Shown here one piece after another: positions 5,000 to 43,289 of a stretch of 47,163 bases of DNA (position 1 is its first letter; every line of letters begins with the position of its first letter). Position numbers and translations under genes: made by a program. Source of the stretch: Eubacteriales bacterium (GTDB lineage Bacteria > Bacillota > Clostridia > UBA1381); contig JAHAZB010000080.1 in the NCBI GenBank assembly GCA_018384175.1, forward strand, positions 1-47,163, in the 5' to 3' direction. Below the pieces are notes generated by a model. That model searched no databases. It saw only the letters and a list, made by a program, of their open reading frames with translations, and was not told the origin of the DNA.

Positions 5000-6739
5000 A
5001 TGAAAAAGCTGTTGCTTGGTAATGCTGCGGTTGCACGTGGAGCATATGAAGCAGGCGTACGAGTAGTTTCATCTTATCCCGGCACACCTAGTACCGAGAT
5101 TACTGAGGAGGTAGCTAAAAACTATCCGGAAATCTACTGCGAATGGGCGCCTAATGAAAAGGTGGCAGGTGAGGTTGCTATCGGTGCTGCGATAGGCGGT
5201 GCAAGAGCAATGTCCTGTATGAAGCATGTTGGTCTTAATGTAATGGCTGACCCTGTATTTACTATGAGCTACATAGGCACAAATGCCGGTTTGGTATTTT
5301 GTGTTGCAGATGACCCTGGTATGCACTCATCGCAGAATGAGCAGGATTCAAGACATTATGCTGAGGCTGCGAAGATAATGATGCTTGAACCGTCCGACTC
5401 TGAGGAATGTAAAGAGTTCACAAAAAAAGCGTTTGAGCTTAGTGAAGAATATGATACACCTGTATTTTTAAGACTTTCTACAAGAATTTCTCACTCACAG
5501 AGTATGGTAGAGCTTAAAGACCGTGAGGAAAAAGAGCTTTTGCCATACGAGAAAAATATCGGAAAGTATGTAATGATGCCCGGTAATGCTAAAAAGCAGC
5601 ACGTTGTTGTTGAAGAAAGACAGAGAAAGCTTTCTGAATACGCAAATACTACCGAGCTTAACAAGGTGGAGGAAAACGGATCAAAGATAGGTATTATCAC
5701 AGCCGGTATTTCATATATGTATGCAAGAGAGGCGCTTGGTGATAAGGCTGATTATTTGAAGCTCGGTATGGTTTATCCGCTTCCTGAAAAGCTTATAAAG
5801 GACTTTGCGGCAAAGCACGACAAGGTTTACGTTATAGAAGAGCTTGACCCGTTTATAGAGAATTTTTGCAAGTCAGCAGGTGTTGAGGTTATCGGCAAGG
5901 GCGAGTTTACACTCCTTGGCGAATACACACCTACAATGATTAAAAAGGTTGTGCTTGGTGAGGGTGCACCTGAATGTTCTGCAATTCCTGAACAGATTCC
6001 GGTAAGACCTCCGGTAATGTGTGCAGGATGTCCTCATAGAGGTACATTCTATGTACTAAAAAAGCTTGGTCTTGTGGTATCGGGTGATATCGGCTGTTAT
6101 ACACTTGGCGCAGTAGCTCCTTTGGCGAGTGTTGATACAACAATTTGTATGGGTGCGTCGGTGTCTGCGGCACACGGTATGGCAAAAGCAAGAGGTGCGG
6201 AGTTTAACAAGAAGCTTGTTTCTGTTATAGGCGATTCAACCTTTATGCATTCGGGTATTACAGGTCTTGTGGATATTGTGTACAACAAAGGCGCAAATAC
6301 TGTAATCATACTTGATAACTCAATTACAGGTATGACAGGCCATCAGGATAACCCGACAACAGGCTACACAATCCGTAAGGAAGAAACAAAGCAGGTCAAT
6401 CTCATTACACTTTGTAAGTCAATTGGTGTAGAAAGAGTTGTTGTTGCGGACCCGTTTGATTTACAGAATTTTGAAGCTGTTGTAAAAGCTGAGGTTGAAG
6501 CAGATGAGCCGTCGGTTATCATCGCACAAAGACCTTGCGCTTTGCTTAAGACAGTTAATTATACAGGACATTGTAAAATCACCGATAAGTGTAAGAAATG
6601 TAAGGTATGTATGCGACTTGGCTGTCCTGCTATTTCAGAAGACGGAAATGGCGGAGTCAGAATAGATACAACACAATGTAACGGCTGCGGACTTTGTATA
6701 AATGTATGTCCGTTTGGTGCGATTGAAAAGGAGGACTGA
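5000..6739 (+). CDS. iorA: Indolepyruvate:ferredoxin oxidoreductase, alpha subunit
   Basis: 579 aa. The large subunit converts aryl-pyruvates (indolepyruvate, phenylpyruvate) to aryl-acetyl-CoA with ferredoxin, or the reverse. The N-terminus carries the pyrimidine-binding domain (LLGNAAVARGAYEAGVRV, SYPGTPSTEI). The middle has the TPP-binding segment with CAGCPHRG and GDIGCYTLG, then GDSTFMHSGITGL. The C-terminus has a ferredoxin-like part with CKKCKVCMRLGCP and CNGCGLCINVCP for [4Fe-4S] clusters. AAAGGAGAA at 4982-4990 supports the ATG at 5000. Its partner iorB follows after an unusual 181-nt structured spacer. Aromatic amino acid context is supported by the downstream phenylacetate-CoA ligase. 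Confidence 0.96.
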   Translation: MKKLLLGNAAVARGAYEAGVRVVSSYPGTPSTEITEEVAKNYPEIYCEWAPNEKVAGEVAIGAAIGGARAMSCMKHVGLNVMADPVFTMSYIGTNAGLVFCVADDPGMHSSQNEQDSRHYAEAAKIMMLEPSDSEECKEFTKKAFELSEEYDTPVFLRLSTRISHSQSMVELKDREEKELLPYEKNIGKYVMMPGNAKKQHVVVEERQRKLSEYANTTELNKVEENGSKIGIITAGISYMYAREALGDKADYLKLGMVYPLPEKLIKDFAAKHDKVYVIEELDPFIENFCKSAGVEVIGKGEFTLLGEYTPTMIKKVVLGEGAPECSAIPEQIPVRPPVMCAGCPHRGTFYVLKKLGLVVSGDIGCYTLGAVAPLASVDTTICMGASVSAAHGMAKARGAEFNKKLVSVIGDSTFMHSGITGLVDIVYNKGANTVIILDNSITGMTGHQDNPTTGYTIRKEETKQVNLITLCKSIGVERVVVADPFDLQNFEAVVKAEVEADEPSVIIAQRPCALLKTVNYTGHCKITDKCKKCKVCMRLGCPAISEDGNGGVRIDTTQCNGCGLCINVCPFGAIEKED

Positions 6740-6881
6740 TAACGTGAAAGTTCCTTTCACGTTATCGCCTTCGGCGGATTGAAAAGCTCGTGCGAAATTT
6801 TCTTCCCATCCGCTCAGAAACGCACATGGGCAAAAAATCTCTTGTCATTCCTTGCCATACGGATAAGAGATATATTAATTA
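6738..6881 (+). other. Structured intercistronic insert between iorA and iorB
   Basis: It starts inside the iorA stop codon with a perfect 13-bp inverted repeat (6738-6750 and 6754-6766) and a 3-nt loop. Next come CGCC/GGCG (6766-6776) and a 10-bp stem, ATCTCTTGTC (6837-6846) with GATAAGAGAT (6862-6871, one G-T pair). No run of T follows the first hairpin, so it is not a standard terminator. No gene of its own is credible here: the open frame at 6779-6991 runs into iorB out of frame. It may be a small palindromic repeat unit that inserted between two genes normally adjacent, and may tune iorB expression or protect the mRNA. Confidence 0.6.
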
Positions 6882-6923
6882 CTATTTGTGCCGACGTATG
6901 GCGGCGGAATGGAGATTTTTATG
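6882..6923 (+). repeat. Dispersed repeat, copy 1 (provides iorB ribosome site and ATG)
   Basis: This stretch is nearly identical to 11295-11337. The first 15 bases differ at one position. A short central part differs (TATG here, CTTTA there). The last 23 bases, ending in GGAGATTTTTATG, differ at one. The variable centre is flanked by GCCG/CGGC here and GCTG/CGGC there, which keeps a short stem. The conserved tail includes the GGAG ribosome site and the start codon. Confidence 0.75.
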
Positions 6924-7487
6924 ACAAAGAGTATAATGATAGTCGGAGTCGGTGGTCAGGGAACACTTCTTGCCAGCCGTATTCTCGGTAATACAGTAAT
7001 AAATGAGGGCTATGACGTAAAGGTTTCTGAGGTTCACGGTATGAGTCAGAGAGGCGGCAGCGTTGTAACCTATGTAAAGTTCGGCGAGAAGGTATATTCA
7101 CCGATTATTGATATGGGTGAGGCAGATATTATTCTTGCATTTGAACAGCTTGAAGCATACAGAGCATTGCCGTATCTAAAAAAAGGCGGAAAAATGATTG
7201 CAAACAACCAAAAAATTAACCCAATGCCTGTAATAACAGGAGTAGCAGAATATCCGGAGAACATATTTGAAAAGATTTCGAAGGAAGCAGAGCTTATTGA
7301 GGTTGACGCACTTTCTCTAGCAGAGGAGGCAGGTAATTTTAAGGCTGTAAACGTTGTATTAATCGGTGTTATGGCAAAAAGTACCGACATTCCCTATGAA
7401 AAGTGGGTAGAAACAATAAAGACAACAGTTCCACCTAAGTTTTTAGATGTAAACTTAAAGGCATTTGATTTGGGATATAATACATAA
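6921..7487 (+). CDS. iorB: Indolepyruvate:ferredoxin oxidoreductase, beta subunit
   Basis: 188 aa, the small catalytic (gamma-type) subunit partnering IorA. It opens with the typical SIMIVGVGGQGTLLASRILG motif, then EVHGMSQRGGSVVTYVKFG (the family signature) and IILAFEQLEAYRALPYLKKG. An ATG at 6909 is in frame, but GGAG at 6911-6914 sits 6 nt before the ATG at 6921, chosen here. That ribosome site and start belong to a dispersed repeat also found before a protease gene at 11.3 kb. Its stop overlaps the ribosome site of paaK, so the two are translationally close. Confidence 0.95.
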   Translation: MTKSIMIVGVGGQGTLLASRILGNTVINEGYDVKVSEVHGMSQRGGSVVTYVKFGEKVYSPIIDMGEADIILAFEQLEAYRALPYLKKGGKMIANNQKINPMPVITGVAEYPENIFEKISKEAELIEVDALSLAEEAGNFKAVNVVLIGVMAKSTDIPYEKWVETIKTTVPPKFLDVNLKAFDLGYNT

Positions 7488-7499
7488 GGAGTGGTAAAA

Positions 7500-8807
7500 A
7501 TGGCTATTTTCCAACCGGAAAAGGAATGTATGGACAGAGAACAGCTAAAAAAGCTTCAGCTTGAAAGACTTCAGGCAACTGTAAAGCGTTGCTATGATAA
7601 TGTAGCTGTTTTCCGTGAAAGAATGAACGAAAAGGGATTGACTCCTGATGATGTTAAATCACTTGCTGATTTAGCAAAGCTTCCATTTACAACAAAGCAG
7701 GATTTGAGAGACTATTATCCGTATGAGCTGTTTGCAGCACCGATGAAGGATATAGTAAGAATTCAGGCATCAAGTGGTACAACAGGAAGACAGATTGTTG
7801 CAGGCTACACCAGAAACGACCTTGATATGTGGGCGGATGCAATGGCACGTCAGCTGGCAGCAACAGGTGCCGATGAGAACTCTGTTGTTCAGGTATCATA
7901 CGGCTACGGACTTTTTACAGGCGGTCTTGGCGCACACGGCGGTGCTGAAAGAATTGGAGCAACTGTTATACCGACATCTTCTGGAAATACAGAACGTCAG
8001 ATAAGACTTATGATTGAGCTTGGCACAACACATCTTTGCTGTACACCGTCTTATGCTATGTACCTGGGCGAAACTATTAACGAAATGGGACTTAAAGACC
8101 AGTTAAAGCTCAAAGCCGGTATATTTGGTGCAGAGCCGTGGACAGAGGATATGAGAATGGCAATTCAGGAGTCTCTTGGACTTGTTGCTCACGACGTTTA
8201 CGGACTTACTGAGATTATGGGACCGGGTGTATCATATGAGTGCGATAAGCAGAATGGTATGCACGTTAATGAGGATATGTTTATCCCCGAAATTATAGAC
8301 CCTGATACAGGCGAAGTTCTTCCTGAGGGCGCATTCGGTGAGCTTGTGTTCACAACAATCACTAAAGAGGGTATGCCTCTTATCAGATACAGAACAAGAG
8401 ATTTGTGTACTCTTAACTATGAACAGTGTGCTTGTGGCAGAACCTTTGTACGTATGCTGAAGCCTGCAGGCAGAACAGACGATATGCTGATTATACGTGG
8501 TGTTAACGTATTCCCGTCGCAGATTGAAGAGGTTCTTCTTAAGGTGAGCGGAGATGAAATTACACCGAATTATCAGATTATAGTTGACAGAGTAAATAAT
8601 ACCGATACACTTGATGTTAATGTCGAAATGAGCGAGAAGATGCTCTCCGACGATGTTCGCTCGGTTAAGGCTATTGAAGATAAGATTGTAAATCAGCTTC
8701 GCTCGACTCTCGGAATAGGCGCAAAGGTACACCTTGTAAACCCGAAGACTATTGTTCGTAGTGAGGGTAAGGCTAAGAGAGTAATCGACAACAGAAAGCT
8801 TCACTAA
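7500..8807 (+). CDS. paaK: Phenylacetate-CoA ligase family enzyme
   Basis: 435 aa, the usual PaaK length. It makes aryl-acetyl-CoA from arylacetate, ATP and CoA. Visible: the P-loop ASSGTTGRQIVAGYT, the adenylation region DVYGLTEIMGPG, the hinge motif RYRTRDLCTL, the Cys-containing CACGRTF, and the C-terminal RGVNVFPSQIEEVLL typical of PaaK. GTG at 7491 is in frame, but AAGGAG at 7486-7491 fits the ATG at 7500. It directly follows iorB and precedes an ACT-domain gene, an arrangement common in anaerobic bacteria and archaea. Because the enzyme is AMP-forming, it favours activation. That points to arylacetate uptake and reductive carboxylation to aryl-pyruvate, although oxidative degradation is possible. 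Confidence 0.94.
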   Translation: MAIFQPEKECMDREQLKKLQLERLQATVKRCYDNVAVFRERMNEKGLTPDDVKSLADLAKLPFTTKQDLRDYYPYELFAAPMKDIVRIQASSGTTGRQIVAGYTRNDLDMWADAMARQLAATGADENSVVQVSYGYGLFTGGLGAHGGAERIGATVIPTSSGNTERQIRLMIELGTTHLCCTPSYAMYLGETINEMGLKDQLKLKAGIFGAEPWTEDMRMAIQESLGLVAHDVYGLTEIMGPGVSYECDKQNGMHVNEDMFIPEIIDPDTGEVLPEGAFGELVFTTITKEGMPLIRYRTRDLCTLNYEQCACGRTFVRMLKPAGRTDDMLIIRGVNVFPSQIEEVLLKVSGDEITPNYQIIVDRVNNTDTLDVNVEMSEKMLSDDVRSVKAIEDKIVNQLRSTLGIGAKVHLVNPKTIVRSEGKAKRVIDNRKLH

Positions 8808-8830
8808 GACTACACGAAAAACAATTTGTA

Positions 8831-8896
8831 GCTTTAAGTAGTGCCATTTGTACGCCGGCGCTACTCAAAGCAGCAATCTGCGCGATTGTTTTCTGC
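8831..8896 (+). other. Two consecutive hairpins between paaK and the ACT gene
   Basis: Hairpin A: 8831-8845 pairs with 8857-8871 (15 positions, one A-C mismatch, one T-G pair), loop of 11 nt. Hairpin B: GCAG/CTGC outer (8870-8873, 8893-8896) and CAATC/GATTG inner (8874-8878, 8884-8888). No T-run follows, so these are not simple terminators. They lie 44 nt before the ACT start and could be a processing site, an mRNA stabiliser or a decayed repeat. Confidence 0.55.
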
Positions 8897-8939
8897 GTAA
8901 AGCTTGTGATTGAATTGTAGTGATTGAAGGAGGATTAAA

Positions 8940-9377
8940 ATGATTATAAAGCAGATTTCCGTATTTGTGGAAAATGGTGTCGGAGGAATTTCCGAGATAA
9001 CAAAAATCCTGAGTGATAACAATATAAATATCCGTTCTGCATATGTTGCAGATACAGCAGAGTTCGGTATTTTAAGACTCATTGTAACAGATACTAAAAA
9101 GGCTGAAAAGGTTTTGGGTGATAGCGGTATAGCTGTTAAGGAAACAGATGTTATTGCTGTTGAAATGAGTGATACACCGGGTGGTCTTGGCGGAATACTT
9201 GATGTTCTTTCGGATAACGGTGTAAATATAGAATACCTTTATGCGTTTGTCGGTAAGGGCGAGAGTGGTGCTTTGATGGTGTTTAAGGCAGATGATGCCC
9301 AGAAGGCAGAGACAGTACTTGAGAATTCAGGCATAGTTGATATAAATGCAACGTCAGTTTATGACAGCCTGAAATAA
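8940..9377 (+). CDS. Tandem ACT-domain protein
   Basis: 145 aa in two ACT repeats. The first (IIKQISVFVENGVGGISEIT, then DNNINIRSAYVAD) and second (VIAVEMSDTPGGLGGILDVL, then DNGVNIEYLYAFVG) each show the strand-loop-helix with glycines typical of amino acid binding. GAAGGAGGA before the ATG at 8940 is a strong ribosome site. Proteins of this type usually follow phenylacetate-CoA ligase in anaerobes and are thought to sense aromatic amino acids. Here it probably gives feedback on the Ior/PaaK pathway. There is no DNA-binding or catalytic domain. Confidence 0.9.
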   Translation: MIIKQISVFVENGVGGISEITKILSDNNINIRSAYVADTAEFGILRLIVTDTKKAEKVLGDSGIAVKETDVIAVEMSDTPGGLGGILDVLSDNGVNIEYLYAFVGKGESGALMVFKADDAQKAETVLENSGIVDINATSVYDSLK

Positions 9378-30515: not shown

Positions 30516-31679
30516 TTAGGCTAAGTTGAACTCAACATTATCAGTCATCATTTTATGAATGACACGAACCAGCTTATGTGCTACATGACCTAATGCAGCA
30601 TAGTGACGGCGACCTTGTGATATTTTTAAGTCATAATAATCTTTGAAAGTATCATTAACTAAGGTTGTCTGCCAAGCAGCATTTATCAATGCATATCGTA
30701 GCAGTTTAGAACCTCTTTTAGACATTCTAGTTTTAGCTGCTGTGAAATTGCCTGATTGATAAACAGACGGGTCAAGACCTGCATACGCAAGCAGTTGGCA
30801 AGGTTTTTTGAAACGGGATATATCACCGATTTCACCGATAATCATAGCACCGTTTAAAGAACCAATGCCCGGTATTGTTTTGATAACCGAATCAAGCTTA
30901 TCCATAATTGCATTAATATTCTCGTCAATTTCGTTTAATTGCTGAGTAAATAATTCAATTTGAGAAATAGCTTGAAATATCTGCAAAGATATGGTATCAT
31001 TTTTAATACCGACAGATTGCGATGCAAGCTCTTTTAAAAGTACAGCATTAGACTGGTTAAAGTGTCCCTTAGAGGACTTGTAGAGAAGGTTCGTAAGCCT
31101 TGTGAGATGCATTTTCGCAATCTTGTCGGGATTTGGTTCTGTTTTGAGTAGTTCATAACAAGCCTTTCCGTGAATACCGGACTTGAAAAAGTACTGTAAT
31201 TCAGGGAATAACAAATCCACATAAGTAACAAGTTGAATTTTAACCTTTGTCCTTGCCTTCATAAGTTTTTGACGGAAGCGACAGAGGTTTTTTAATTGCA
31301 GAGAATCATAATCACGCTCGGAAAACAGACGATATTGATTCATAATCAAAGCCTTAATGATGAGGTATGTATCGACAGAATCGGTTTTGGTCTTTCTGAT
31401 GTTGGTTTTTCTGAGAGTAGAAGTTTGTATAGGATTAATGATACAAACATTGAAAGCTCTTGAATACAGAAAACAGGTAAGGTTCTCGGCGTAATGAGCA
31501 GTGGATTCCATTCCAATCAGGATTTCTTCTTTTGGAAATTCTGCGAGATTGTCAAGCAGTAATTGAAAACCTGTGTGATTGTTAGAGAAAGGAAACGGAC
31601 TAACAAGGATTTCACCATCAGAATTCATAACTGCAGCATAGTGTGTTTGCTTGGCAACATCAATGCCAACATAATACAT
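30516..31679 (-). CDS. IS110 family transposase (DEDD recombinase)
   Basis: 387 aa. N-terminal DEDD domain: YYVGIDVAKQTHYAAVMNSD (first Asp), GMESTAHYAENL (Glu), and KTDSVDTYLIIKAL (the paired Asp). C-terminal Transposase_20 domain: TIPGIGSLNGAMIIGEIGDI, KPCQLLAYAGLDPSVYQSG and RMSKRGSKLLRYALINAAW, with the catalytic Ser in the last. Length and motifs are intact, so it could be active. ATG at 31679 lies 9 nt after AAAGGAG; an in-frame upstream extension to 31736 is less likely. These enzymes use a bridge RNA from the element's own non-coding end. Confidence 0.95.
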   Translation of the reverse strand: MYYVGIDVAKQTHYAAVMNSDGEILVSPFPFSNNHTGFQLLLDNLAEFPKEEILIGMESTAHYAENLTCFLYSRAFNVCIINPIQTSTLRKTNIRKTKTDSVDTYLIIKALIMNQYRLFSERDYDSLQLKNLCRFRQKLMKARTKVKIQLVTYVDLLFPELQYFFKSGIHGKACYELLKTEPNPDKIAKMHLTRLTNLLYKSSKGHFNQSNAVLLKELASQSVGIKNDTISLQIFQAISQIELFTQQLNEIDENINAIMDKLDSVIKTIPGIGSLNGAMIIGEIGDISRFKKPCQLLAYAGLDPSVYQSGNFTAAKTRMSKRGSKLLRYALINAAWQTTLVNDTFKDYYDLKISQGRRHYAALGHVAHKLVRVIHKMMTDNVEFNLA

Positions 31680-31694
31680 TAAAATCAACTCCTT

Positions 31695-31860
31695 TGTAAG
31701 TTTACACTGTGTTTGTCCACTTAGTTTTATCATCATAAACTTGCGGGAAATGAAAGTTCAAAGACTTATCCAACTATAAATAATTTAGATAAAACTGTGG
31801 CAATACACTCCTTAAAATAGTCAAAGCTATAAATTGTTATAAAAAGTCCACAGTGTTTTA
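31695..31860 (-). ncRNA. Candidate bridge RNA region of the IS110 element
   Basis: The 185-nt non-coding stretch upstream of the transposase, on the same strand, is where IS110-group elements encode their bridge RNA. An extended -10, TGATATAAT, lies just upstream (31872-31864). The RNA would open with a stem of 31848-31860 and 31790-31800 (11 pairs with a 2-nt bulge) around a 47-nt AT-rich loop, then a smaller hairpin (AACTT/AAGTT near 31740-31760). This matches the two-loop layout in outline only; guides were not assigned. The 3' limit is unknown. Confidence 0.4.
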
Positions 31861-36648: not shown

Positions 36649-36671
36649 GGGGTTGCTGTAACGGCAACCCC
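36649..36671 (+). terminator. GC-rich hairpin after dnaK
   Basis: GGGGTTGC (36649-36656) and GCAACCCC (36664-36671), 8 bp and a 7-nt loop. No T-run follows (CTTAAATTTC), so it may weaken readthrough or protect the dnaK mRNA end rather than terminate fully. A new promoter follows for dnaJ. Confidence 0.55.
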
Positions 36672-36700
36672 TTAAATTTCAAGAAATTACATATATACTA

Positions 36701-36729
36701 TTTACAAAGCTGACGCAATTTGGTATAAT
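36701..36729 (+). promoter_or_regulatory. Separate promoter of dnaJ
   Basis: TTTACA (36701-36706), 17-bp spacer, TATAAT (36724-36729), with TG before the -10. No CIRCE is present here. Confidence 0.82.
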
Positions 36730-37917: not shown

Positions 37918-39216
37918 ATGCAACCTAATATTTATAAGTTATCTGAAATGACCGAAAAAGAACGTGATTATATTTTAAGACGTGCCGAGCTTGACATCAC
38001 AGAGCAGATGAGAGTGGCAACAGAGGTTTCAAACGACATCAGAGCTCGTGGTGATGCGGCGGTTTTAGAGTATACAGAAAAATTTGATAAGGTTAAGCTT
38101 ACAGCATCACAAATGAAGGTAACACCCGAAGAAATTGAAATCGGTTACAACAGACTTGATAGCAAAACAAGAGAAGCAATCGAATACGCATATAAAAATA
38201 TCTATGATTTCCATGAAAAGCAGATGCCGGAAGAAATGTGGTTTACTATGGTTGATGATGGATTGATGGTTGGTGAAAAGACTACTCCGATTGTAGATGT
38301 ATGTCTTTACGTGCCGCACGGAAAAGGTAGCTTTCCATCAGTGCTTTGTATGCTTGGTATACCTGCAGTTGTTGCTAAAGTTCCTAAAATTGTAGTTGTA
38401 ACACCTCCAAACGAAAAGGGTGAGGTGGACGATGCAATACTTGCAGCTGCAAAGATTATCGGTATTACTGAGATTTACAAAGTAGGTGGTATTCAGGCAG
38501 TTGCTGCCGTTGCTTATGGAACAGAAACAATTCCAAAGTGCCATAAGATTATTGGTCCGGGAAACAGCTATGCTACTGCAGCAAAAAGAGTGCTTGCAAG
38601 TTACATTGATGCAGGACTTCCTGCAGGTCCAAGTGAAGTGATTATCCTTTGTGATGAGCACGCTGACCCAGAAAAAGTTGCTCTTGACTGGATGATTGAA
38701 GCTGAGCACGGCCCTGATAGTGCTGCACTTCTTGTAACACATTCAAAAGAACTTGTTGACAAGGTTATTCCGATTGTAAACAGACAACTCGAAAAGATTT
38801 CAGATAAGAGAAAAGAGTTTGTATCTACTAACTTTACAACATACGGCGGAGTGATACTTACAGACTCTCTGGATGACTCCATTGATTTTGTTAACGAATA
38901 TGCGCCGGAACATATGGAAGTAATGACAGAAAAACCTTTTGAAACATTACCTAAAATTAAGAATGCAGGTGAAATATTACTTGGCGACTATACGCCGGTA
39001 ACACTTTGCAATTTTGTTCTTGGACCTAATGCAATATTACCGACAGGCGGTTTCGCAAAGACATATTCAAGTGTGTCTGTCAATGATTTCCTGAAACGTT
39101 CATCTGTTGGTTATGCATCTAAGGACGGATTTGAAAAAGTCAGAGGCTATGCTGCACGATTTGCAGATGTAGAAGGCTTTGATACTCATGGCTTGGCTGT
39201 TAAAGAAAGAAAATGA
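37918..39216 (+). CDS. hisD: Histidinol dehydrogenase family protein (divergent active site)
   Basis: 432 aa, full HisD length and fold: VGGIQAVAAVAYGTETIP, KIIGPGNSYATAAKRV, AGPSEVIIL, AEHGPDSAALLVT and YAPEHMEV. Against E. coli HisD from memory, Glu331-His332 match catalytic Glu326-His327, and His264, Glu419 and His424 are kept. But Glu261 stands for zinc ligand Gln259, Asn365 for Asp360 and Ala372 for substrate-contact His367, and PGG reads PHG (133-135). It is probably an NAD-dependent alcohol dehydrogenase, perhaps not for histidinol. No other core his genes (G, A, F, H, C) are in the window. Ribosome site TGGAGGG. A true but divergent HisD remains possible. Confidence 0.82.
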   Translation: MQPNIYKLSEMTEKERDYILRRAELDITEQMRVATEVSNDIRARGDAAVLEYTEKFDKVKLTASQMKVTPEEIEIGYNRLDSKTREAIEYAYKNIYDFHEKQMPEEMWFTMVDDGLMVGEKTTPIVDVCLYVPHGKGSFPSVLCMLGIPAVVAKVPKIVVVTPPNEKGEVDDAILAAAKIIGITEIYKVGGIQAVAAVAYGTETIPKCHKIIGPGNSYATAAKRVLASYIDAGLPAGPSEVIILCDEHADPEKVALDWMIEAEHGPDSAALLVTHSKELVDKVIPIVNRQLEKISDKRKEFVSTNFTTYGGVILTDSLDDSIDFVNEYAPEHMEVMTEKPFETLPKIKNAGEILLGDYTPVTLCNFVLGPNAILPTGGFAKTYSSVSVNDFLKRSSVGYASKDGFEKVRGYAARFADVEGFDTHGLAVKERK

Positions 39217-39239
39217 ACAGAAGACAGAGAGGATTTCCC

Positions 39240-39863
39240 ATGGAACGAATAGAAGTAAAAAGAACTACCACAGAATCAAAAATGTCAGTTGTACTTGACT
39301 TTGCTCCGCTTTCCGATGATTACAGAGAAAAAATCAATACACCGCTTACATTTTTGAACCATATGATAGAGCATATTGCATGGCGTAGCGGTATCAACAT
39401 TGCAGTTGATACACAGCTCGATAAATTCACACTTTCACATGTAATCTGCGAGGATTTAGGCATTGCCTTAGGTAAAGCAATCGCAGAATATGTCAAGAGA
39501 ATGTCTGACAAAGGTGTTGTCGGTTACGGCGATGCTTATGGAATTATTGACGAAGCACGTGCACACGCACTAATCAGCTTTGAAAGTAGAACATATTTTG
39601 ACATAGATTATAACGGCATTGAAATGTGCGATGAAGTGGAAGGAATGTACAAGGAAGACCTTGAAACATTCTTACTTGGCGTTGCTCAAGGTGCTAATTG
39701 TACATTGCAGATTGTGCTCGAAAAGGGAGAAAATGGTCATCATATTTGGGAAGCAATCTATCGTAGCATAGGCACTATGTTATCTAAAGCACTTTCTTGC
39801 GACGAAAGTCGAGTTGGAAAAACTGCCGGTGTTGCCGGTACTATTAACTGGGAAATTGTATAA
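39240..39863 (+). CDS. hisB: Imidazoleglycerol-phosphate dehydratase family protein (divergent)
   Basis: 207 aa, IGPD-sized. Family pattern: EVKRTTTESKMSVVLDF, FLNHMIEHIAWRSG (usual FFDHML...HG), SHVICEDLGIALGKAI (usual DHHTVED), GYGDAYGIIDEAR, and GENGHHIWEAIYRSI. The second His of the paired manganese ligands is Val68, the Asp before the first is Ser66, and FDHM is LNHM. The later HH..E set (167, 168, 171) is kept. Activity on the usual substrate is therefore doubtful. An ATG at 39213 overlaps the HisD-family stop, but AGAGAGGA before 39240 favours that ATG. A terminator follows. Confidence 0.8.
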   Translation: MERIEVKRTTTESKMSVVLDFAPLSDDYREKINTPLTFLNHMIEHIAWRSGINIAVDTQLDKFTLSHVICEDLGIALGKAIAEYVKRMSDKGVVGYGDAYGIIDEARAHALISFESRTYFDIDYNGIEMCDEVEGMYKEDLETFLLGVAQGANCTLQIVLEKGENGHHIWEAIYRSIGTMLSKALSCDESRVGKTAGVAGTINWEIV

Positions 39864-39925: not shown

Positions 39926-40924
39926 ATGGCAAAGCTTGCAAAATTTCTTGACAAATATGATACAGTTGTTTTTGATATGGATGGTGTGGTAACAAGCGAG
40001 CAGAAATACTGGACTGCTGCAGCTCTTACCGTTTGGGAAAAATTGTTTTCTTCTGATTATTCAGTAGAACAGATGGCTTACAATTCACTTACAATACGAA
40101 AAAATGTATTTTGCGATGATAGGATAATTACCTTATTGAAGAAGAAGGGAGTAAACTCTAATTGGGATTTAGCGTATGTTGTATATGCAGTTTCAAAAAT
40201 ATATAATACTACAAACTTCCACGAAATTTTTGAGTTATGCAGTAACTTCGGCAAAAATATCCTTGACGAGTATCCGGTAATTGATAAAGCACTCACTAAA
40301 GCAACTGGTGTAGATGGTTCGAGAAATGGAATTTTGTGGAATGATTTGATGATGACTTTTCAAAGCTGGTATCTTGGTGATGAACTTTACCAAACTACAT
40401 ATAATAGAGAGCCTGTAAATAAAGGGAAAACAGGACTTATATCAGATGAAAAACCTGTTATTGATATTGATGATTTAATATCAGTCTTCAAGCTGCTGTC
40501 GAATACAAACAAACGTCTCGCTATTGCAACCGGAAGACCATCTGCTGAGCTTATTACACCGATTAAAAATTTCGGAATTTATGACTGTTTTGCTAAAGAT
40601 GGAATTATAACATATGACCATGTTCAAGAGGTTGAATCGATGTTTGGAAAAACCTATTCAAAGCCTCATCCATATGTGTTTTTGAAAGCAATGCTTGGTG
40701 AGGACTATTCTGATAATGACATAATAAACGGGGAATATAACCATAGTTTATCAAGAAAAACACTTATAGTAGGTGATGCTGGTGCAGATATGTTTGCAGC
40801 TAAGGAAATGTGTGCGGATTTTTGTGCGGTGCTTACCGGAGTTGAGGGACAAGGTTCAAGAGCTTATTTCGAAAGCAATAATGCGGAATATATTCTTGAT
40901 TCCATCGAGGATTTTATTGAATAA
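39926..40924 (+). CDS. HAD superfamily hydrolase with large cap domain
   Basis: 332 aa. HAD motifs: TVVFDMDGVVTS (DxD), AIATGRPSAELI (motif II), KPHPYVFLKA (Lys) and LIVGDAGADMFAAK (DxxxD). An insert of about 180 residues after motif I forms a large helical cap, larger than in common phosphoglucomutase-like members. Expected to be a phosphatase. Substrate unknown. The phosphatase step next to HisB- and HisD-family genes recalls the order of late histidine biosynthesis, but nothing else supports a histidinol-phosphatase role. ATG at 39926 follows AAGGAGA. Confidence 0.85.
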   Translation: MAKLAKFLDKYDTVVFDMDGVVTSEQKYWTAAALTVWEKLFSSDYSVEQMAYNSLTIRKNVFCDDRIITLLKKKGVNSNWDLAYVVYAVSKIYNTTNFHEIFELCSNFGKNILDEYPVIDKALTKATGVDGSRNGILWNDLMMTFQSWYLGDELYQTTYNREPVNKGKTGLISDEKPVIDIDDLISVFKLLSNTNKRLAIATGRPSAELITPIKNFGIYDCFAKDGIITYDHVQEVESMFGKTYSKPHPYVFLKAMLGEDYSDNDIINGEYNHSLSRKTLIVGDAGADMFAAKEMCADFCAVLTGVEGQGSRAYFESNNAEYILDSIEDFIE

Positions 40925-40933
40925 GGCGGAAAG

Positions 40934-41485
40934 ATGATGAGAACAATTACACCACCTCTTAGCAAAGAGGATATAAAGACATTAAAAGCTGGCGACAGCG
41001 TCCTGATTACAGGAATTATATATACAGCAAGAGATGCTGCACACAAACGAATGTGTGAGGATTTTCAAAAAGGAATCCAATTTCCGTTTGATTTGCACGG
41101 ACAGATTATATATTACGCTGGGCCTTGTCCTGCAAAACCTGGAGAAGTAATAGGCTCTTGTGGTCCGACAACAGCAGGAAGAATGGATTCTTATACACCG
41201 CTTTTGCTAGAAAATGGTCTTTCTGGTATGCTTGGCAAAGGAGCCAGAAATGAAGCTGTTGTACAATCAATGACTGAAAATACATCGGTATATCTCGGCG
41301 CAACCGGCGGTGCAGGTGCATTGATGGCGGAATGTATTAAAAGTTCAGAGGTTGTTGCTTATCCTGAACTTGGAACGGAGGCAGTGCGAAAATTATACGT
41401 AGAAAATTTACCGTGTATTGTTCTGGTAGATTACAAAGGTAACGATATATATAAGTCCGGTCAGGAAAAATACAGGAGGTTATAA
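40934..41485 (+). CDS. Fumarate/tartrate hydratase beta subunit family protein
   Basis: 183 aa, the size of the C-terminal (beta) part of class I Fe-S fumarases and L-tartrate dehydratase. Signature parts: LKAGDSVLITGIIYTARDAA, HGQIIYYAGPCPAKPGEVIG, CGPTTAGRMDSYTP, GARNEAV and YLGATGGAGALMAECI. Normally the alpha subunit holding the [4Fe-4S] cluster is encoded just before; here a HAD hydrolase takes that place. Either alpha lies elsewhere on the chromosome, or this beta subunit has another job. Two adjacent ATGs (40934, 40937) follow AAGGCGG. The adenine deaminase gene starts 1 nt after its stop. Confidence 0.88.
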   Translation: MMRTITPPLSKEDIKTLKAGDSVLITGIIYTARDAAHKRMCEDFQKGIQFPFDLHGQIIYYAGPCPAKPGEVIGSCGPTTAGRMDSYTPLLLENGLSGMLGKGARNEAVVQSMTENTSVYLGATGGAGALMAECIKSSEVVAYPELGTEAVRKLYVENLPCIVLVDYKGNDIYKSGQEKYRRL

Positions 41486-41486
41486 A

Positions 41487-43142
41487 ATGAATAAAGAAAA
41501 GTTTATTGATATTGCTCTTTCGAATGAAATAGCTGACCTTGTAATAAAGAATGCAAAAATCGTTGATGTCTTTAACGGCAGAATTATTGAGGGAACTGTT
41601 GCTATCAGTGAAGATATAATTATCGGTATTGGTAACTACGAAGGTAAAGCTGAATATGATGCAAATGGTGCGTATCTTATGCCGGGATTTATCGACTCGC
41701 ACGTTCACATAGAATCGTCTATGGTTACTCCTGCTGAGTATGCAAGAGTAGTAATACCTAAAGGTGTAACGACTGCTATTTGTGATCCTCACGAGATTGC
41801 AAACGTGTGTGGTATAGATGGTGTTAAGTTTATGATGGATAATGCACGAAATGTTCCGCTTGATTTTAAGTTTATGCTTCCATCTTGCGTCCCTGCTGCT
41901 CCTTTTGAAGATGCCGGTGCGGTATTTACGGCTGCTGACACAAAAGAATATCTTGAAAAATACGATTTTCTCGGACTTGCAGAAATGATGAACTATCCCG
42001 GCGTTCTGTTTAAGGATGGGGAAGTCATGACAAAAATCTCAGCATCCAATATAGTCGATGGTCATGCTCCGGGAGTAAGCGGAAAAGAACTTTCTGCATA
42101 TGCCGGTCTCGGAATATGTTCTGACCATGAGTGTACAACACCTGAAGAAATGGAAGAAAAGATATCTGCCGGTATGTATGCATTACTCCGCTGCGGAAGA
42201 ATGTCCAGAGAATTTACTCAAATGGCTTCTAAAGTGAATAAATATAACGCTTCACGAGTTACATTCTGTACTGATGACAGAAACCTATCCGATATTATAG
42301 AAAGCGGTACAATTCAAAACTGTATAGTTACTGCAAATAGTGTGGGTATGGATATTTATGATGCTATTCGTGCAGCAAGTCTTAATGCGGCACAATGTTA
42401 TAAATTAGATAAGCTCGGTGCAATCGCACCCGGATATAAAGCTGATTTGGTTCTTGCAACAGACATATGTCCAAAAGAAATAATAGCTGTATGGAAATCC
42501 GGCGTTATTGCATATGATAATGCTGAATTAAAATTCAAAACACCGGAAGTTAACAAAACATCTGCTATATATGAATCTGTTAATATTGCACCTTTTTCTA
42601 AAGAAGAACTGATATGCGAGTTTTCTCAAGACAAACCTGTAATTTCTATCGAAGAAGGATCATTGCAGACAAGAAAAATATACAGGAACACAAAGGAAGG
42701 CTTATCTCATCTTGCAGTTATAGAACGCCACAAAAAAACAGGTAAAATCGGAACATGCTATGTAGATAACTACGGTATAAAGAATGGCGCAATTGCTTCT
42801 TGTATCGGACATGACTCTCACAATGTTACAGTTGTTGGTGATAGTGCAGATGATATGGCGATTGCAGTTAATCATTTAGGCAAGAATGGTGGAATTGCGG
42901 TTGTATCAAATGGCAAACTACTCGCAAAACTAGAATTACCAGTGGCGGGGTTAATGTCAGATAAGTCGGCAAATGACGTTGTTGCAGAGCATAACGCTAT
43001 TGACGAAGCAGCAAAAGCCCTTGATATAAATCCGAATCTTGACCCGTTTATGACGCTTGCTTTTTTATCCTTGCCGGTAATTCCCGAACTTAGACTTACC
43101 GCAAGAGGTCTATTTGACGTAACAAACTTTGATTTTATATAG
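41487..43142 (+). CDS. ade: Adenine deaminase
   Basis: 551 aa. It converts adenine to hypoxanthine and ammonia in purine salvage. Amidohydrolase metal motif GFIDSHVHIESSMVTPAEYA, then GVTTAICDPHEIANVCG, SDHECTTPEEMEEKISAG and FCTDDR (metal Asp). The C-terminal domain (GIKNGAIASCIGHDSHNVTV) is specific to Ade. A strong AGGAGG precedes the ATG. It is the last gene of the group running from the HisD-family gene. Confidence 0.95.
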   Translation: MNKEKFIDIALSNEIADLVIKNAKIVDVFNGRIIEGTVAISEDIIIGIGNYEGKAEYDANGAYLMPGFIDSHVHIESSMVTPAEYARVVIPKGVTTAICDPHEIANVCGIDGVKFMMDNARNVPLDFKFMLPSCVPAAPFEDAGAVFTAADTKEYLEKYDFLGLAEMMNYPGVLFKDGEVMTKISASNIVDGHAPGVSGKELSAYAGLGICSDHECTTPEEMEEKISAGMYALLRCGRMSREFTQMASKVNKYNASRVTFCTDDRNLSDIIESGTIQNCIVTANSVGMDIYDAIRAASLNAAQCYKLDKLGAIAPGYKADLVLATDICPKEIIAVWKSGVIAYDNAELKFKTPEVNKTSAIYESVNIAPFSKEELICEFSQDKPVISIEEGSLQTRKIYRNTKEGLSHLAVIERHKKTGKIGTCYVDNYGIKNGAIASCIGHDSHNVTVVGDSADDMAIAVNHLGKNGGIAVVSNGKLLAKLELPVAGLMSDKSANDVVAEHNAIDEAAKALDINPNLDPFMTLAFLSLPVIPELRLTARGLFDVTNFDFI

Positions 43143-43169: not shown

Positions 43170-43198
43170 TTGACAAAATGAAGAATTGCCGTTATAAT
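43170..43198 (+). promoter_or_regulatory. Perfect consensus promoter of tRNA-Asp
   Basis: TTGACA (43170-43175), 17-bp spacer, TATAAT (43193-43198); the tRNA starts 15 nt after the -10. Confidence 0.88.
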
Positions 43199-43212: not shown

Positions 43213-43289
43213 GGCCCGGTAGTTCAGTTGGTTAGAACGCCAGCCTGTCACGCTGGAGGTCGTGGGTTCGAGCCCCATCCGGGTCGCCA
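43213..43289 (+). tRNA. tRNA-Asp (anticodon GTC)
   Basis: Cloverleaf drawn by eye: acceptor GGCCCGG with CCGGGTC, D arm with AGTTCAGTTGGTTAGA, anticodon stem CCAGC/GCTGG enclosing CTGTCAC (anticodon GTC at 43247-43249), T loop GTTCGAGCC, discriminator G and encoded CCA at the end. It is a single tRNA gene with its own promoter and terminator. Confidence 0.98.

Follow-up and report, generated by a model that had tools for sequence, protein, structure and literature searches.

The window, by which we mean the whole 47,163-nucleotide stretch of DNA that was analyzed, carries on its forward strand a run of genes that begins with overlapping members of the HisD and HisB families. The first gene, hisD' (37918..39216), encodes a 432-aa HisD-family dehydrogenase of a group here called the E/N/F/A subfamily, and its product scores 465 bits against TIGR00069 (cut-off 244). 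The hisD' reading frame overlaps by 4 bases with that of hisB' (39213..39863), which encodes a divergent 216-aa member of the imidazoleglycerol-phosphate-dehydratase (IGPD) family (PF00475, 105 bits). The conserved third gene of this cassette specifies a HAD-superfamily phosphatase (39926..40924; 332 aa counted from the conserved ATG), and the fourth encodes a class I fumarase-type beta subunit, an Fe-S hydro-lyase (40934..41485; NF005310, 269 bits with a cut-off of 238). These profile matches agree with the names given to both neighbors in an earlier interpretation made from the DNA letters (the sequence-only reading). The adenine deaminase gene ade follows (41487..43142; TIGR01178, 570 bits). 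Its position beside the cassette is restricted to the genus of the window; loci L072 and L073 have ade too.

A strong terminator-like hairpin (36649-36671) precedes a near-consensus promoter, and both lie between dnaK and dnaJ. The promoter, a sigma-70-like TTTACA-17-TATAAT detected by consensus scan on the forward strand before dnaJ (36701..36729), is a possible start for a dnaJ-hisD'-hisB'-HAD-fumB-ade unit. Together, the hairpin and promoter (36649-36729) may mark off the heat-shock genes from dnaJ and the cassette. A tRNA-Asp (gtc) gene is located directly after ade (43213-43289) and has a perfect consensus promoter (43170-43198), and an IS110-family transposase gene occupies positions 30516-31736. 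The region from 5000 to 9377 encodes a ferredoxin-dependent 2-oxoacid oxidoreductase pair, an AMP-binding enzyme resembling phenylacetate-CoA ligase, and an ACT-domain pair protein. By gene content this set looks like arylpyruvate metabolism, which would be relevant to possible imidazolepyruvate handling.

HisD' is 36% identical to E. coli HisD and shares its fold family with canonical HisD proteins (E. coli 1K75, M. truncatula 5VLB). It retains E331-H332, H264, E419, and H424, which correspond to E. coli E326-H327, H262, E414, and H419. The catalytic Glu326-His327 pair (E. coli numbering) and Glu414, whose role is imidazole binding (PMC5585171), are present in 93 of 93 relatives. HisD' differs from the canonical enzyme at four positions: Q259 of E. 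coli is replaced by E261 (codon 38698..38700), D360 and Y361 by N365 and F366 (39010..39015), and H367 by A372 (39031..39033). In the alignment, Glu, Asn, Phe, and Ala occupy these positions in all 93 distinct relatives, whereas Gln, Asp, Tyr, and His are found in 30/30 canonical HisD proteins from the same class. The alignment therefore agrees with the sequence-only reading, which had reported E261, N365, A372, and an intact E331-H332. Of the canonical zinc set Gln259/His262/Asp360/His419, both histidines are kept and the other two positions are Glu and Asn, a swap that leaves the predicted charge of the zinc ligands unchanged. HisD' is also unusually conserved, with 75-92% identity to members of its own clade across families.

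The predicted structure of HisB' (pLDDT 94) has the IGPD fold. When compared with solved IGPDs, the model yields Z scores of 23.6-26.3 and rmsd values of 1.5-2.1 Å, with a Z score of 26 to S. aureus 2AE8. The protein nevertheless falls below every NCBIfam HisB cut-off, the best equivalog match being 109.6 bits versus 189. Canonical IGPDs such as A. thaliana IGPD2 and S. aureus 2AE8 have in common with HisB' the fold, the catalytic E21 (A. thaliana numbering; kept in 91/91 relatives), and six of eight manganese ligands. In the A. thaliana enzyme, Mn1 is bound by H47, H74, H169, and E173, and Mn2 by H73, E77, H145, and H170 (PMC4509728). The position of H74, the second His of the HH motif, is V77 in HisB' (codon 39441..39443); the relatives carry V (64) or L (27), and thus none of the 91 has the His that is present in 31/31 canonical proteins. 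H145 corresponds to T152 (codon 39666..39668), and this position is T in 82, V in eight, and A in one of the 91 relatives, versus Glu in 31/31 canonical Clostridia proteins. Given the published ligand assignments, the missing H74 and H145 indicate that one ligand has been lost from each manganese site, leaving two His and one Glu in each; these six are invariant among the relatives.

The phosphate site of HisB' is altered as well. Among the 91 relatives, R99 is replaced by G or S (G104 in the window), and H55 and K177 are replaced by R. The C-loop G206-V-A-G209 (39828..39839) is invariant (91/91) where canonical HisB has SSKG (S-S/T-K-G), and the canonical combination of R99 with S-S-K-G is missing. 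The T152, G104, and C-loop changes go beyond those listed in the sequence-only reading, which had correctly seen a valine in place of a paired manganese histidine; its number, V68, counts from Met10, and the residue is V77 in the full open reading frame. Another listed change, LNHM for FDHM, is trivial since FLNHM is found in canonical HisB too. The His of a 'TLHI' motif was considered as a metal ligand and is ruled out by the published ligand table (PMC4509728); the same position is Q166 in HisB'. In Monoglobus pectinilyticus, HisB' is annotated as a hypothetical protein.

The invariance of E/N/F/A versus Q/D/Y/H in the two HisD groups, along with that of V or L versus His in the two HisB groups, indicates that the altered residues are not due to chance. 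Judging from these alignments, the changes in the HisD'/HisB' pair are real and not local drift. The putative metal sites of both proteins look rebuilt rather than destroyed.

The HAD protein carries the sequences DMDGV, TGRP, KPHP, and GDAGAD, which represent all four HAD motifs (DxD, T/S, K, and GDxxxD), and D17, D19, T202, K246, D284, and D288 are invariant or nearly so. It belongs to the same family as S. aureus 1QYI. The bifunctional HisB of E. coli is a HAD histidinol-phosphatase fused to an IGPD. The cassette is similar in that a HAD phosphatase is paired with an IGPD, but here the phosphatase stands alone as a 332-aa member of the 1QYI family. Among relatives of the source genome, this gene is present in 50 of the 56 with divergent HisB and in none of the 33 with canonical HisB. 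It has been retained but moved away from the cassette in five divergent genomes, and six lack it.

In phylogenetic trees, HisD' and HisB' each form one clade (100/100) on a long stem, and neither nests within its canonical family. HisD' further clusters (100/100) with plasmid-encoded E/N/F/A proteins of Phyllobacterium (L240), Klebsiella (L241), Sinorhizobium (L243, S. meliloti), and Rhizobium (L244, R. ruizarguesonis), which are annotated as histidinol dehydrogenase. Three of these, QND34969.1 (S. meliloti), QLX18555.1 (Klebsiella oxytoca), and WP_100003567.1 (Phyllobacterium), are 44-47% identical to HisD'. Since this shared clade lies apart from both canonical HisD and HpsN-like proteins, the E/N/F/A proteins constitute a third HisD subfamily. 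TIGR00069 does not discriminate between these groups because the proteobacterial paralogues also pass it. The proteobacterial proteins share the signature and clade of HisD' but have no HisB' or HAD partner, and their operons contain transporter or dehydrogenase genes and no histidine biosynthesis block. A HutC-type regulator is encoded in three of the four operons (S. meliloti HutC, 259 bits with a cut-off of 220), and an uncharacterized protein of ∼430 aa in all four. Because the subfamily occurs in these catabolic-looking operons, HisD' need not act on histidinol or a close analogue.

The HisD superfamily also includes HpsN, a sulfopropanediol 3-dehydrogenase (8V35) that acts on an alcohol other than histidinol. 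HpsN keeps the Gln and Asp zinc ligands, and its G-R-Y-A/S-H motif ends in a zinc-switching His (PMC11382572). HisD' has HGKGSF at this motif and Glu and Asn at the ligand positions, and HpsN-like plasmid homologues carry Q/D/K/H residues and fall in a different clade. Membership of HisD' in the HpsN group is ruled out by these residues and by its clade.

The distribution of the cassette was examined in 101 relatives and in 391 genomes sampled across the class; most of the genomes are incomplete MAGs. Different families share the gene order hisD'-hisB'-HAD, and in most of them the fumarase-type subunit comes next. In families f1 and f3 the cassette is located behind hrcA-grpE-dnaK-dnaJ; in other families it is found in different places. 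A scan with HisD' located 80 loci, 78 of which have HisB' downstream; the sequence-only reading had asked whether the pair stays together across genomes, and it does. In two Clostridia MAGs (L190 and L192), HisD' is flanked by carB and a cysK-like gene and lacks both HisB' and HAD as partners, and one genome of family f2 (G077; loci L101 and L102) has two copies of the hisD'-hisB'-HAD cassette.

Canonical and divergent HisB proteins exclude each other. In the 101 relatives, HisB scores fall into two groups, 194-231 bits and 101-141 bits, and each genome has a single type; a canonical gene split into two fragments goes with the first group. For the 391 class genomes, no best HisB E-value falls between 3.7e-56 and 9.7e-40. 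By score, 236 of these genomes are canonical, 56 are divergent, and none has both, whereas 34 overlaps are expected under independence (p about 2e-26 if genomes are treated as independent, a statistic that ignores phylogeny). Both types occur within the same families (f1, f2, f4, f19, f20, f30, f32, and f54). Families met only in the 391-genome sample, and the other low-scoring families f20, f24, f30, f32, f37, f47, f54, f69, and f73, are classed by HisB score. No mosaic genome, with canonical HisB and HisD' or the reverse, was seen.

Although the window lacks the rest of the histidine pathway, as the sequence-only reading had stated, the genome does not. In this MAG (88% complete), the genes for the steps to imidazoleglycerol phosphate (IGP) are present as hisZ-hisG-hisA-hisIE on contig C46 and hisF-hisH on contig C64. 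No second hisD or hisB was found in it, and the best match to a HisC-type aminotransferase (TIGR01141, E-value 3.1e-28) is under the cut-off. HisG is present in 53/56 divergent and 28/33 canonical relatives, compared to five of the 12 genomes with neither form of HisB; the cassette therefore rarely occurs without HisG (3/56). HisC is above the cut-off in 30/33 canonical genomes and in none of the 43 divergent genomes outside family f2. The 12 divergent genomes with a HisC-like match over the cut-off all belong to f2, where the gene lies in a purE-miaB-mutS context. HisC-like matches of 200-240 bits in family f1 were set aside as probable CobD, as judged from their cobalamin-like gene context. 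The model for PHP histidinol-phosphatase is passed by 31/33 canonical and 11/56 divergent genomes.

A short PHP-domain protein (∼215 aa; hisJ_fam 51 bits, under the cut-off) is encoded beside hisZ-G-A in some genera of f1 (L198, L201, L204, and L196:1410-2063, the latter on source genome contig C139), and is possibly a phosphatase. It was rejected as a specific replacement phosphatase because canonical genomes matched too. In Candidatus Roslinia caecavium, 2.3 kb separates the end of the cassette from a downstream group comprising a fused hisZ-hisG, hisA, and hisIE. This HisZ-HisG fusion occurs in Roslinia (L168:14105-15760) and in Monoglobus (L242, NZ_OY725736.1, 490-507 kb), and RefSeq names it solely as a regulatory subunit. 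The Monoglobus 518-kb 'plasmid 12' carries the housekeeping genes uvrC, proB, pta, and recN and looks like a piece of chromosome.

Candidate HisR boxes were sought with a published consensus (PMC9413887) and a score of 19 or more. HisR-like boxes lie upstream of hisZ operons in 10 of 24 cases among cassette-bearing genomes, versus a background of 9/814; these include L197-L200, L203, L207, and L215. There is no such enrichment at the cassette (2/115), and no Rfam element was found there in the eight loci searched.

The explanation we favor, and consider probable, is that hisD'-hisB'-HAD is a co-inherited block replacement of the lower histidine pathway, from IGP to histidine, in some Clostridia. 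This proposal is based on the retention of the upstream genes, the one-for-one way in which the two forms exclude each other, and inheritance together with a phosphatase. We infer the enzyme activities of HisB', HAD, and HisD' as follows. These Clostridia would have lost canonical hisB, hisC, the PHP histidinol-phosphatase, and hisD, while HisZ-G-IE-A-H-F would still supply IGP. HisB' would then dehydrate IGP or dephosphorylated IGP, the HAD enzyme would remove the phosphate, and HisD' with NAD+ would oxidize the terminal alcohol to the acid. The retention of HisB E21, HisD E326/H327, and the imidazole-binding Glu fits this block replacement. Counting against it are the location behind dnaJ in f1 and f3, an odd place for his genes, the lack of HisR enrichment or an Rfam element, the six genomes without HAD, the HisC-like gene of f2, the catabolic-looking proteobacterial operons, and the incompleteness of the MAGs.

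The substrates may have changed within the histidine pathway. No mosaic genome has been seen, and HisC has been lost even though the cassette brings no aminotransferase, which suggests that the intermediates may differ from the canonical ones. Both facts would be explained if amination comes last: IGP would yield imidazole acetol after losing water and phosphate, HisD' would oxidize this to imidazolepyruvate, and a general aminotransferase would produce histidine. Histidinol would be skipped, and HisC and histidinol-phosphatase would become dispensable. The missing HisC and the exchange of the whole block at once incline us slightly and tentatively toward this route. About equally plausible, and equally tentative, is that the cassette, with its metal sites rebuilt, performs the standard reactions on IGP, histidinol phosphate, and histidinol and that a promiscuous aminotransferase replaces HisC, which would account for the same two facts. 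Mutual exclusion of the canonical and divergent genes and the conserved catalytic and imidazole-binding residues are consistent with such a displacement, as are the HisC-like protein of f2 and the optional status of HisC and HisN in published gut reconstructions (PMC9026213). It is harder to reconcile with the absence of mosaic genomes, with the lack of HisC in 43/43 divergent genomes outside f2, and with the placement of HisD' in a non-canonical subfamily.

The sequence-only reading had proposed a dehydratase/phosphatase/dehydrogenase set recruited for another metabolite. The set itself holds up: its active sites are changed coherently, and its genes stay together across genomes. Its action on an unrelated metabolite, in lineages whose histidine pathway has lost its final steps, we regard as unlikely. 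To our knowledge, IGP has no use other than histidine biosynthesis, yet hisZ-G-A-IE-H-F are retained, the cassette is rarely without HisG, and no genome with canonical HisB has the divergent form. The lack of another hisD or hisB in the genome is also a result that the sequence-only reading had itself taken to speak against recruitment. Some weight is still given to this idea because of the Rhizobium, Sinorhizobium, and Klebsiella clade-mates of HisD' near transporters and dehydrogenases, the position after dnaJ in f1, and the absence of visible HisR control at the cassette; the attached fumarase-type subunit also fits. Least credible, and disfavored despite the homologous folds and family-level HMM matches, is the other alternative raised at that time, that these are ordinary hisD and hisB genes evolving rapidly or decaying. 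The substituted positions do not revert in any of 91-93 sequences from several families, HisD' is too conserved and belongs to a subfamily shared with Proteobacteria, and both proteins form separate, fully supported clades on long stems.

Histidine biosynthesis is generally regarded as a single, conserved pathway. The exchange of a whole block of the last histidine enzymes in many gut Clostridia suggests, on genomic grounds, that these organisms may finish histidine by different chemistry. No published description of this HisB/HisD variant was found in the largely open-access literature searched; one table lists a single histidine prototroph variant, for which HisB and HisD are required (PMC9026213). 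A second set of lower-pathway enzymes that many gut Clostridia share and that is annotated only in part would cause auxotrophy to be miscalled and would alter metabolic models. It would also provide a natural test of how far the two-metal mechanism of HisB and the zinc site of HisD can be rebuilt. If amination does come last, then these bacteria would have a different ending to the textbook pathway.
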